Below, piece after piece: positions 364-4,027 of a stretch of DNA of 5,227 bases. Every line of letters starts with the position of its first letter. Position 1 is the stretch's first letter. Origin of the DNA: Planctomycetales bacterium (GTDB lineage Bacteria; Planctomycetota; Planctomycetia; Pirellulales; Thermoguttaceae). Made by a program: the position numbers and the translations under genes. The notes beneath the pieces were generated by a model. It had not been told where the DNA came from and ran no database searches. It saw only the letters and a list, made by a program, of their open reading frames with translations. The stretch covers positions 1 through 5,227 of the forward strand of contig SKJM01000064.1 of NCBI GenBank assembly GCA_007122045.1, read 5' to 3'.

Positions 364-402
364 TGTCGCAAACACGAAGCATTTTGACGCAAAAACAAAG
401 TT
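364..402 (+). promoter_or_regulatory. Conserved upstream box, copy 1 (PEP-CTERM-associated)
   Basis: This 39-bp block matches 1564-1602 at 34 of 39 positions, and the last 15 bases (CGCAAAAACAAAGTT) are identical. It has two CGCAAA half-sites at 367-372 and 388-393, exactly 21 bp apart, which is two helical turns. It lies upstream of the promoter at 411-439 and about 125 bp before the first PEP-CTERM start. The repetition, the half-site spacing and the position before two related genes suggest a regulator binding site. The identity of the regulator is unknown. Confidence 0.65.
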
Positions 403-410
403 TTCGGCGT

Positions 411-439
411 TTGACCATGGCGCAGCCTGTTGGGATAAT
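411..439 (+). promoter_or_regulatory. Sigma-70-type promoter of first PEP-CTERM gene
   Basis: TTGACC (411-416) and GATAAT (434-439) each match the consensus at five of six positions and are separated by the ideal 17 bp. The predicted start of transcription is near 446, giving a leader of about 80 nt that contains a doubled TAAGGG (441-452) at its beginning. The same hexamer pair and spacing recur at 1601-1629 before the second PEP-CTERM gene, which raises confidence that both are real. Confidence 0.65.
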
Positions 440-1629: not shown

Positions 1630-1760
1630 GAAATACGGAAGCTGAGGTCCTTTTCGATTTCCGGCCGGGAGTGGCCCGCCGGCCCGAGGCTTCCGCGAAC
1701 CTGTAAGGGCGACACCGCCCAGAAAGGGGGGCGCAGATGCTTTGCAAGTGCGCTACGAAC

Positions 1761-1766
1761 AGGAGG
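1761..1766 (+). promoter_or_regulatory. Shine-Dalgarno site that favours the GTG start at 1776
   Basis: A perfect AGGAGG lies nine bases before an in-frame GTG at 1776-1778. The in-frame ATG further upstream at 1737 is preceded only by a purine-rich run (1723-1730, AAAGGGGG). Starting at 1776 gives a textbook signal peptide, while starting at 1737 adds thirteen residues with two Cys and four Arg ahead of it. This site therefore decides the start call. Confidence 0.7.
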
Positions 1767-1775
1767 CCGCGACGG

Positions 1776-2555
1776 GTGAAACTCGCACGGCTCGCCGTGG
1801 TCGCGATCGCCGCCGCGGTCATGCTCAGCGCCGGCATGACGCACGCGGAAATCATTTACCTCGATAACTTCGACAGTGGCAGTTCCGGCGACCAGCTCTT
1901 GGGCAACGCCCCCGACGTGAGGCCGGGCGCGGAAACCTGGTCGGGCACGGGCGTGTTCAAATACGATGGTGCGGGCGCGGTCTATTTCGACCACAACGAT
2001 GCCCGTTCAAACCATTTGCCGCTGACGATCGAGGACGACCTGATTTACACGCTTACCGCGAGGGTCAGGAACGCGCGTCCTGATACCAGTAGCGATTGGA
2101 TCGCCATCGGCTGGGCGGAAAACGATCATTATGCTGGCTTCAACTCAAGCAGCAGCAGCGCGTCACGCGGCCATTACTGGATGATTTGGCGAGGCAGCAC
2201 CGAACTTCGTGCATTTGTAGGGCCGGCGACCGCCTCCAGTGCGGATGGCGGGTCGGGCACCAACGCTCCCGGCGAGGGCGACGAGCTGGATCTCCGAATC
2301 GTCCTCGATCAACTTGCCGCAACGCCGACGGCCTATTTCCAGTATAAGAATCCCAGCGAGAGCCAGTGGACCGAGTACGCTTCGGTAGCGCTCAACGACA
2401 CGCTGTTGAATAATATCAGTCGCGTCGGCATCTCGGCCAGTAGTACCTTAACCGGTGTTTCCTCCTTCGAGTTGACTGCGGTGCCCGAGCCGGGCACGTG
2501 GCTGTTACTGCTTTCGGCCCTGGCGTGCGGGCTGCTGGTGCGGCGCCGGCGATGA
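1776..2555 (+). CDS. PEP-CTERM sorting domain-containing protein, second paralogue
   Basis: A 259-residue secreted protein from the preferred GTG start; an in-frame ATG at 1737 would give 272 residues. The signal peptide is residues 1-24 (MKLARLAVVA to MTHA) with likely cleavage before EIIYLDNFDSG. The mature domain has alternating hydrophobic beta-strand patterns (for example YTLTARV at 91-97, IAIGWAENDHYAGF at 109-122, YWMIW at 134-138, DLRIVLDQ at 172-179), consistent with a concanavalin-A-like/LamG-type sandwich, which in this family often binds carbohydrate. The tail is PEP (237-239), a hydrophobic helix and RRRR (256-259), the signal for exosortase processing. The only Cys (251) is in the tail helix. 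It shares N-terminal FDSG and C-terminal sequence with the upstream paralogue but the middle differs. It has its own box and promoter (1564-1629). Ligand and role are unknown. Sorting call firm, fold tentative. Confidence 0.9.
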   Translation: MKLARLAVVAIAAAVMLSAGMTHAEIIYLDNFDSGSSGDQLLGNAPDVRPGAETWSGTGVFKYDGAGAVYFDHNDARSNHLPLTIEDDLIYTLTARVRNARPDTSSDWIAIGWAENDHYAGFNSSSSSASRGHYWMIWRGSTELRAFVGPATASSADGGSGTNAPGEGDELDLRIVLDQLAATPTAYFQYKNPSESQWTEYASVALNDTLLNNISRVGISASSTLTGVSSFELTAVPEPGTWLLLLSALACGLLVRRRR

Positions 2556-2562
2556 TTTACGT

Positions 2563-2583
2563 GCGGCAATTTATGGCCGCTTT
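2563..2583 (+). terminator. Weak terminator-like hairpin after second PEP-CTERM gene
   Basis: GCGGC (2563-2567) pairs with GCCGC (2576-2580) around an eight-base loop and is followed by TTT. It begins eight bases after the stop codon of the second PEP-CTERM gene. The stem is short and the T-run is only three bases, so read-through into the DUF1559 gene 120 bases later is plausible. Confidence 0.3.
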
Positions 2584-2651
2584 GGGCGCGCTTGGCTGTA
2601 CGCCCCGGTTCGTAATGAATCGCCAGGGAGCAGGGAGCGGGCAAGGCCAAA

Positions 2652-2669
2652 GCGGGAATGAATTCCCGC
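2652..2669. promoter_or_regulatory. Interrupted palindrome upstream of DUF1559 gene
   Basis: GCGGGAAT (2652-2659), centre GA, ATTCCCGC (2662-2669): perfect 8-bp arms, 34 bases before the start at 2703. It could be an operator on DNA or a hairpin in the leader mRNA. An in-frame ATG at 2658 falls inside it and has no Shine-Dalgarno sequence, another reason to prefer the start at 2703. No confident -35/-10 pair is seen in 2556-2702. Confidence 0.4.
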
Positions 2670-2690
2670 ACTCCAAAGGCGCATTGTCGC

Positions 2691-2696
2691 AAGGAG
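2691..2696 (+). promoter_or_regulatory. Shine-Dalgarno site that fixes the DUF1559 start at 2703
   Basis: AAGGAG lies six bases before ATG 2703. The upstream in-frame ATG at 2658 lacks such a site and would add fifteen residues ahead of the short basic leader typical of type IV pilin-like signal sequences. Confidence 0.75.
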
Positions 2697-2702
2697 CATT
2701 CC

Positions 2703-3644
2703 ATGACTACCGGCAATCCCAAATCCAAAGTCGGAAACCCAAACCTCGCCTTTACCCTGGTCGAGCTGCTGGTGGTCATCGCCATCATCGGCATCTTGAT
2801 TGCTTTGCTGCTGCCGGCGGTGCAGGCGGCGCGCGAGGCGGCGCGGCGGTTGCAATGCGCGAACAACCTGAAGCAAATCGGGCTGGCCATGCACAACTAC
2901 CACAGCGCGCTCGGCTCGCTGCCCGCCGGGAGCCTCCACGCCTCGACGCAGGGCACGCCCCCCGGCATTAGCTGGCACGTGATGGTCCTGCCCTACCTGG
3001 AGCAGGACGCCGTGTACAACGTGCTCACGCCGACCGTCGACGCCCGGGTGGCCGACGACAGCCCCGTGCAGGCCTGGCTGACCATGTACGTGTGCCCCAG
3101 CGCCGAGCCGCCGGTGGACGATTGGCAGAATACGGGCGTGAACAAGGCGACGAACTACGCGGGCGTGGCCGGATCGGGGAACGTGCGGGCGCTGAAACCG
3201 GAAAGTTCGCACTGCGGCGACGTGGCCCTTGACGGCACGTTCTACCCCAATAGCGGCACGCGGCTGGACGATATGCGCGACGGCACCAGCAACACCATCA
3301 TCGTGGGCGAGCGAGATTACGAAACCCGGTCCTGGATTGCCGGATCGTGGTATTCCGGCAGCCGGACGAACATGACCAAGATCTGCAATTACGGCAAGAA
3401 CGTGGCCTGGCCGATCAATTCCGACCCCGACCAGATCGGCTATTACGTCTTCTCACAAATTGCTCCCCCCGGAGCCCAGAAAAGCGTCCTGTTCAACGAT
3501 CTGCACTACGGCAGCCGGCACCCGGGCGGGGCGCTGTTCCTGCTGGGCGACGGCAGCGTCCATTTCCTCAGCGAAACGATGGACTTTACGACCTATCAGG
3601 ACATGGCGACGATCGCCGGCGGGAAGGTGGTATCGTGGCAGTAG
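2703..3644 (+). CDS. DUF1559 domain-containing protein with prepilin-type N-terminus and H-X9-DG signature
   Basis: A 313-residue type II secretion/type IV pilin-like protein of the large DUF1559 (SBP_bac_10-like) family that is greatly expanded in planctomycetes. The leader (1-16) ends before [16 protein letters not shown] (17-32), the prepilin methylation motif, with Phe at +1 and Glu21 at +5. The residue before the cut is Ala, not the usual Gly, which prepilin peptidases can also accept. The hydrophobic helix is followed by [14 protein letters not shown], typical of the family. Near the C-terminus His273 and Asp283-Gly284 are nine residues apart ([12 protein letters not shown]), matching the prepilin-type processing-associated H-X9-DG domain. 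Cys52 and Cys131 are among the Cys residues. The protein should sit in the cytoplasmic membrane and extend outward; molecular function is not established for the family. The stop overlaps the start of the lipoprotein gene, suggesting coupled translation. Confidence 0.93.
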
Positions 3645-4027
3645 TGCCCCTTGGGAAGACGTTGGTTCTCGGCGTGGTCGTGCTGGCCGGTTGCGGCCGC
3701 GCGGCCGGCCCGCCCACGTATCCGGTTTCCGGCAGGGTCACGTACCAGGGCGCGCCGCTGGAGCGGGGCACGGTGCTGTTCGTTCCCGAAACCGGCCCGG
3801 CCGCCGGCGCGACGATCGCCGCCGACGGCACGTTCAGCCTCCGTGCGGTTGCCGGCAAGCATCAGGTGGGCGTCTCGTCGGTCCCCGAGCCCCCGCCCGG
3901 TATCGAGCCGATGACCTACGACGCACCGCCGCTGATTCCCCCCCGCTACAGCCGACCCCACAGTTCCGGCCTCACGGCCGAAGTGCAGGCCGGCCGTGAC
4001 AACCGCGTGACGTTCGAGCTAGAATAG
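3635..4027 (+). CDS. Small lipoprotein with transthyretin/carboxypeptidase-regulatory-like domain
   Basis: A 130-residue putative lipoprotein. The signal sequence [20 protein letters not shown] ends in a lipobox LAGC with Cys20 as the lipidation site. The remaining segment has a compact beta-sandwich pattern: [21 protein letters not shown] (29-49), [19 protein letters not shown] (62-80), then a Pro-rich stretch (84-106, including [14 protein letters not shown]) and a last strand ending TFELE. This layout is common in planctomycete proteins that follow DUF1559 genes. The start is uncertain: GTG 3635 overlaps the DUF1559 stop by ten bases with AAGGTGG just before it (3624-3630), while GTG 3644 would overlap by one base. 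Both keep the lipobox. Overlap implies translational coupling and a shared location at the cell envelope. No catalytic residues are evident; a structural or partner-binding role is inferred. Domain assignment is by pattern only. Confidence 0.85.

Follow-up and report, generated by a model that had tools for sequence, protein, structure and literature searches.

A direct-repeat box ahead of two planctomycete PEP-CTERM genes as a predicted operator of a XylR-type activator

We propose that a 39-bp block, present twice in a 5.2-kb contig (the whole stretch of DNA analysed, hereafter the window), is the operator of a XylR-type activator of the two PEP-CTERM genes that follow it, and we put the probability of this prediction at roughly 70%. 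The CGCAAA core of the block goes with XylR/AraC-type genes and with varied targets, so the block would belong to an operator class of sugar-sensing regulators that has some PEP-CTERM genes among its targets. The link of the window box to XylR-type genes rests on the core and its spacing, because no further copy of the full half-sites was found, and the linked loci that support the operator reading are few.

Two direct-repeat boxes and the genes behind them

The two copies of the block (364-402 and 1564-1602) have the same base at 34 of 39 positions, whereas in 300 simulations of the upstream regions under a first-order Markov model the best gapless 39-mer match reached at most 26/39, with a mean of 22.6. 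A repeat comparison gave 81% identity for the surrounding 48 nt of the two blocks, and in 10-bp steps outside the block the identity was 0-5/10, which is the chance level, so that the match is confined to the block. The recurrence beyond the surrounding similarity, with which the original prediction began, was therefore borne out, and no dispersed repeat of which the block could be a part was seen. The prediction had also placed two CGCAAA half-sites 21 bp apart in each copy; this spacing is present in both, and the repeat unit can be refined to an asymmetric 15-bp half-site, two of which stand in direct orientation in each block. On the plus strand, box 1 consists of a distal half-site at 365-379 (GTCGCAAACACGAAG) and, 21 bp from it, a proximal one at 386-400 (GACGCAAAAACAAAG), and box 2 of a distal half-site at 1565-1579 (GTCGCAAACGCGAAG) and a proximal one at 1586-1600 (GCCGCAAAAACAAAG) that abuts the -35. 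All four share the consensus G.CGCAAA..C.AAG, are identical at 11 of 15 positions, and have the outer parts RCGAAG or ACAAAG. The mismatches between the copies fall on 4 of the 8 linker bases (those written as N in the consensus of the original prediction) vs 1 of the 31 other positions (Fisher p = 0.004, with boundaries picked after the variation had been seen). A third CGCAAA (GGACGCAAAACGTCACG, 480-497) lies in what is presumed to be the 5' leader ahead of the first PEP-CTERM gene, with no exact partner 19-24 bp away. Rfam, searched up to an E-value of 1, returned nothing at the boxes and a single match in the window, RT-15 at 2726-2869 (17.7 bits, gathering score 82).

Each box is followed on the plus strand by a promoter-like sequence of the predicted form TTGAC(C/G)-N17-GATAAT, and these are the only two sigma70-like sites found in positions 1-2700, where 0.6 were expected from shuffled sequences. 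Copy 1 (411-439) has TTGACC at 411-416 and GATAAT at 434-439, and copy 2 (1601-1629) has TTGACG at 1601-1606 and GATAAT at 1624-1629; the -35-like hexamers are consensus matches only, and the -10-like hexamers, each behind a 17-nt spacer, come from a promoter scan. Between the last base of the proximal half-site and the -35, copy 1 has 10 nt and copy 2 has 0 nt, which sets the two copies roughly one turn of the helix apart. Counted from the first base of the second CGCAAA, the -35 and the -10 begin at 23 and 46 nt in copy 1 and at 13 and 36 nt in copy 2. The boxes thus have asymmetric half-sites within the range of about 15-17 bp, directly repeated with a period of about 21 bp, and a proximal half-site that adjoins the -35 (copy 2) or lies 10 nt from it (copy 1), the arrangement looked for in an operator of the AraC/XylS type.

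A PEP-CTERM gene stands behind each box as predicted, and a dedicated cis element ahead of both is well supported. Protein 1 (276 aa) is encoded at 525-1355 and protein 2 at 1776-2555, both on the plus strand and called from reading frame and Pfam; the C-terminal motif PF07589 scores 23.0 and 27.3 bits in the two proteins (cut-off 20.7), and Pfam gives no further domain in either. For protein 2, GTG 1776 is a likelier start than the longer option, ATG 1737, because a database protein that is 99% identical (P0052) begins there. The protein database contains 50 further relatives of protein 1, many of which carry what we take to be Verrucomicrobia-like tails, yet 118 other genomes of the window's family gave one weak match only (G024); horizontal transfer of this gene is possible. 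Downstream on the same strand follow a DUF1559 / H-X9-DG pseudopilin gene (2703-3644, by Pfam), a gene at 3638-4027 (approximate start) for a small protein that has a lipoprotein-like start and weakly matches CarboxypepD_reg (27.2 bits, below the cut-off of 32.3), and the start of a FAD-dependent oxidoreductase gene. The order PEP-CTERM, DUF1559 pseudopilin, small lipoprotein-like protein occurs at three loci of the genome (window 1737-4027, L042 and L048). Between the small lipoprotein-like and oxidoreductase genes, the segment 4036-4247 is bounded by a perfect 20-bp inverted repeat (4036-4055/4228-4247) with an inner 21-bp inverted repeat of 95% identity (4096-4116/4134-4154), and it resembles a small mobile or REP-like element. 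Inspection of open reading frames and domains revealed no regulator gene on the window contig.

CGCAAA pairs beyond the window

The original prediction had the block define a PEP-CTERM regulon, and this part was not upheld: the box is not a general PEP-CTERM regulon element. With up to three mismatches, the full box was found in the window's own genome (a metagenome-assembled genome in 861 contigs, 4.3 Mb long and 72.7% complete) only as the two window copies 1.2 kb apart, and in 0 of 59 relatives; a reversed control pattern had no match in the own genome. The DUF1559/H-X9-DG and PEP-CTERM genes of this genome suggest that it comes from a planctomycete. In a collection with one genome per species, in which records close to the window's genome may be absent, the exact 20-base repeat pattern occurred in 18 stretches, 17 of them inside a mechanically called reading frame of at least 80 aa and none planctomycete by title, and these look like chance matches. 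The own genome has 25 PEP-CTERM matches at E-values up to 1, of which 21 lie above the cut-off, one of these only together with its neighbours in frame. Among the 11 PEP-CTERM upstream regions that could be read (with start codons picked by us), a CGCAAA pair stands in 3 and is absent from 8, and matches were not concentrated at PEP-CTERM genes generally. Part of the proposed association survives, in that CGCAAA pairs recur ahead of PEP-CTERM and DUF1559 genes, but they also stand ahead of oxidoreductase, transporter, epimerase and aminotransferase genes. Two of the PEP-CTERM upstream regions (L040 on C629 and L045 on C423), and more loosely a third (L047 on C643), share a leader around TTTGCACCtGaAAACGGA, which is possibly a different control element; several of the other PEP-CTERM genes of the genome have TTGACA-type promoter-like sequences without the box. 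We also sought the upstream DNA of relatives of the first PEP-CTERM gene, in 119 genomes of the family, which gave the own gene and the weak G024 match, and in 387 genomes of the phylum to which a Verrucomicrobiales MAG belongs, four of which had a match; at the five loci from the latter search, a CGCAAA pair with a period of 19-24 was absent.

Three further pairs of the own genome proved informative as to neighbours. The first came from a direct-repeat scan (period 20-22) of the 11 PEP-CTERM upstream regions, in which this repeat alone has p = 0.12: it has the form CGCAAA-N16-CGCAAA (TCGCAAAgaacccctgattttttCGCAAAA, contig C460, period 22) and lies between divergent genes for a XylR-type regulator and a PEP-CTERM protein. 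A hexamer-pair scan of the retrieved loci brought up the second (TCGCAAAcaacccccaattttttCGCAAAA, contig C840), a near-copy of the C460 box that stands after a PEP-CTERM gene and 144 bp ahead of a DUF1559 gene, and a scan of retrieved loci also gave the third (contig C602), with a period of 20, directly after a XylR-type regulator gene and 123 bp ahead of a GFO_IDH_MocA oxidoreductase gene. At C460 and C840, too, a DUF1559 gene follows a PEP-CTERM gene. The C460 and C840 boxes escaped a weight-matrix scan based on the window half-sites because their outer parts, which are alike, differ from those in the window. C460 and C840 probably answer to one regulator, and the window boxes probably to another, so far unseen, regulator paralogue. 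The pattern CGCAAAN{15,16}CGCAAA occurs 5 times in the own genome vs once for its reversed control (the fifth match was not located). Two XylR-type genes of the own genome have pairs that depart from this pattern, one in its period of 20 (C602, locus L269) and one by a mismatch (C271, locus L270), which suggest an operator class wider than the exact pattern searched.

Across the own genome and 59 relatives the same pattern has 339 matches and its reversed control 336 (318 vs 239 when G022, a genome rich in the control, is left out), and therefore most CGCAAA pairs are due to chance. The intergenic ones were nevertheless set apart from the coding ones by their neighbours. Among the matches listed, 151 outside the own genome had their surrounding sequence examined (91 coding and 60 intergenic, as assigned by a simple purpose-made gene caller), and AraC-type reading frames were sought with a model derived from nine AraC proteins of the own genome in a piece of 1.6-4.0 kb per locus (median 3.0). 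In the relatives, again among the matches listed, such a frame was present at 9/56 loci with an intergenic pair vs 1/87 with a coding pair (Fisher p = 0.001). The lone coding match (L233) may precede the true start of the gene, as does L177, which was counted as intergenic. The window's own family accounts for 8/32 intergenic vs 0/20 coding loci (p = 0.017) and the other families for 1/24 vs 1/67; 24 of the 32 intergenic loci of the own family have no AraC-type gene in the piece examined. Linkage to AraC-family genes is hence seen at C460, at C602 and at these 9 of 56 intergenic loci of relatives, and at neither box of the window contig. In one relative (G025), two pairs stand on either side of a single XylR-type gene; one of them faces a PEP-CTERM/CBM96 protein and the other a GFO_IDH_MocA protein. 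Three candidates from other families (G054, G053 and G050), in which AACCCC is placed as in C460, resembled relatives but fall within, or probably within, coding sequence. In another genome (G030, locus L142, 1711-1801 in minus-strand coordinates), five CGCAAA follow one another at 21-22-bp steps in DNA called non-coding, and an AraC-type gene was absent from the 3.5-kb piece.

Regulators, targets and promoter distances at the linked pairs

Ten of the adjoining regulators (two in the own genome, eight in relatives) were scanned with Pfam, and nine of them carry a LacI-like sensor followed by an AraC DNA-binding domain, as in XylR (Peripla_BP_3, PF13377, with HTH_18, PF12833), three of these also having PF22177; the tenth combines AraC_binding (PF02311) with HTH_18 (PF12833). 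The C460 and C602 regulators are both of the Peripla_BP_3 and HTH_18 type, and that of C460 matches the E. coli XylR structures 4fe4 (E = 4e-46) and 4fe7 (E = 5e-46) over residues 22-380. At the positions that we take to be the recognition helices, the first helix of the linked regulators is near-constant (SRRxLExRF-like) and the second is variable. The SRRxLExRF-like helix is also present in the own-genome AraC-type genes of C271 and C625, whose contigs lack the exact pair and each contain a pair with one mismatch. The domain pair of nine of the ten neighbours is that of E. coli XylR, and the first helix of the latter (SRSNLEKRF) is alike; however, CGCAAA pairs with a period of 20-22 are absent from the xylA-xylF region of E. 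coli, even with up to two mismatches in all.

The targets of the linked pairs are varied. By Pfam, PEP-CTERM proteins are found at G028 (with Laminin_G_3), twice at G025 (with Laminin_G_3 and with CBM96) and at C460 (with Laminin_G_3), so that four linked targets have Laminin_G_3 or CBM96 domains; the C460 protein scored 26 bits for PEP-CTERM in one scan and 20.3 in another, just below the cut-off of 20.7. DUF1559 proteins are targets at G035 and C840 and GFO_IDH_MocA proteins at G025 and C602, and the others are an SSF transporter (G017), an epimerase (G014), a DegT-type aminotransferase (G030) and a PATR-repeat protein truncated at a contig end (G018). In a first test for enrichment, PEP-CTERM or DUF1559 genes followed 5 of 24 intergenic forward matches vs 11 of 251 background genes (p = 0.0075). 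Later comparisons gave 7/20 loci vs 3/215 genes (p = 1e-6) and, for the AraC-linked loci, 4/9 vs 3/215 (p = 4e-5), both biased in favour of enrichment, as the target motifs were called by Pfam in longer DNA and the background by a stricter text pattern in short pieces. The background sets differ as well, with 9 PEP-like genes in the first test and 1 in the later one.

The distance to the promoter was compared over 14 linked boxes, namely five of the own genome (C602 with its period of 20), eight of the nine AraC-linked boxes of relatives, and G028, where the AraC-type gene lies at a distance of 1.65 kb; two loci were excluded, L207, which belongs to another family and has a weak HTH match, and L233, the coding match. 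At C460, C840 and C602, -35-like and -10-like hexamers begin 14 and 37 nt after the first base of the second CGCAAA (TTGCTT/TCTAAT, TTGTGT/TCCAAT and TTGTTA/TATACT, respectively), those of C840 being weak, with the weight matrix favouring another -10 at offset 48. When the best -10 was taken from 52 offsets, it fell at 34-37 nt in seven boxes and at 45-50 nt in the other seven. Among 5000 circular shifts, none attained the observed value of a statistic on offsets 34-37 and 44-47, windows that were set after the sequences had been seen. The means of four-offset windows were highest at 34-37 (2.5) and next at 44-47 (1.1), and the single-offset means were not sharply peaked. For the simple motif TANNNT, intergenic forward matches compared with coding matches as 6/24 vs 3/91 at 32-38, 3/24 vs 4/91 at 42-48 and 0/24 vs 3/91 at 20-26. 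Two clusters of -10 distances about one helical turn apart are expected if a protein on the box faces the polymerase, and promoter geometry is a weaker test of the operator reading.

The operator reading, its alternatives and its meaning

The alternative that fares best, itself rather unlikely, is that the box binds a different regulator of 21-bp direct repeats, e.g. a response regulator, and that the XylR-linked boxes share CGCAAA with it by chance. It would fit the outer parts in the window, which are unlike those of C460 and C840, as well as the lack of a visible regulator on the contig and the finding that CGCAAA pairs are no commoner than their reversed control. Against it, the core, the near-identical spacing, the orientation and the promoter distance match those of XylR-linked boxes in the same genome, and the variable outer parts would be explained by paralogous AraC domains in which the first helix is conserved and the second varies. 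We also consider it improbable that the two boxes are simply a local copy, a promoter segment duplicated or converted as the PEP-CTERM genes became tandem, and so reflect ancestry and not function. Such a copy would account for a full box found only twice at a distance of 1.2 kb, but the flanks and the distance from box to promoter have diverged while 30 of the 31 half-site positions agree, and the pairing of CGCAAA recurs at other loci at a similar promoter distance. The A-runs upstream of the -35 could instead mark an A-rich phased segment, UP-element-like or bent DNA, that aids RNA polymerase directly; we give this very little credence, as conservation is base-specific in G.CGCAAA..C.AAG and the A/T-rich linker is the more variable part. 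The sigma-54/PrsR promoter element of Proteobacteria, likewise found upstream of PEP-CTERM genes, can practically be dismissed, since in its description it is confined to Proteobacteria among the genomes covered (PMC1569441), the -24 GG/-12 GC-like matches in the window (8 vs 6.8 expected) include none at the boxes, and the boxes precede sigma70-like hexamers.

In the predicted XylR-type operator, each direct half-site would be occupied by one AraC domain of a dimer, with both domains, each fused to a LacI-like sugar sensor, on the same face of the DNA. CGCAAA would be read by the conserved first recognition helix and the outer part by the variable second helix, which would so separate paralogous regulators. 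Upon sugar binding, the proximal subunit may contact RNA polymerase at the -35, with copy 1 acting about one helical turn farther upstream. The regulator gene for the window may sit on unassembled adjoining DNA.

The repeat period and the overlap with the -35 have a precedent in XylS at Pm. Two sources describe the XylS operator as two 15-bp direct repeats and that of MtlR at PmtlE as AGTGC-N5-AGTAT-N7-AGTGC-N5-AGGAT, two 15-bp blocks that lie upstream of the -35 in a stretch of at least 37 bp (PMC5481539, PMC4514859). Both resemble the window boxes in having two asymmetric 15-bp blocks in direct orientation upstream of a promoter, but the window half-site is G.CGCAAA..C.AAG, the targets are exosortase-type surface proteins, and the regulator here is a predicted one. 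PrsK/PrsR control through sigma-54, as described in the 2006 paper that defined PEP-CTERM, is alike in placing a common element before PEP-CTERM genes and different in promoter type, in motif and in its restriction to Proteobacteria; in that paper, the other upstream regions await explanation and control outside Proteobacteria is left open (PMC1569441). In the literature searched, subscription papers being outside the scope, no title or abstract opening among those listed describes this operator.

Beyond the window, we tentatively suggest a common code, a proposal that could nearly as well be right as wrong. Paralogous XylR-type sugar sensors of one planctomycete-like family would share operators in which CGCAAA is constant and the outer part varies, with a 20-22-bp repeat and two helically phased promoter distances, and the code would tie sugar sensing to exosortase-sorted, carbohydrate-binding surface proteins and DUF1559 pseudopilins. 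The analysis provides a concrete operator together with a candidate class of regulator that has a sugar-sensor-like domain, and the code may make pairs of regulator and target predictable from sequence. If it holds, PEP-CTERM surface proteins would be displayed in response to specific sugars, and the operator code would offer a route to the inducers of genes whose function is otherwise unknown.
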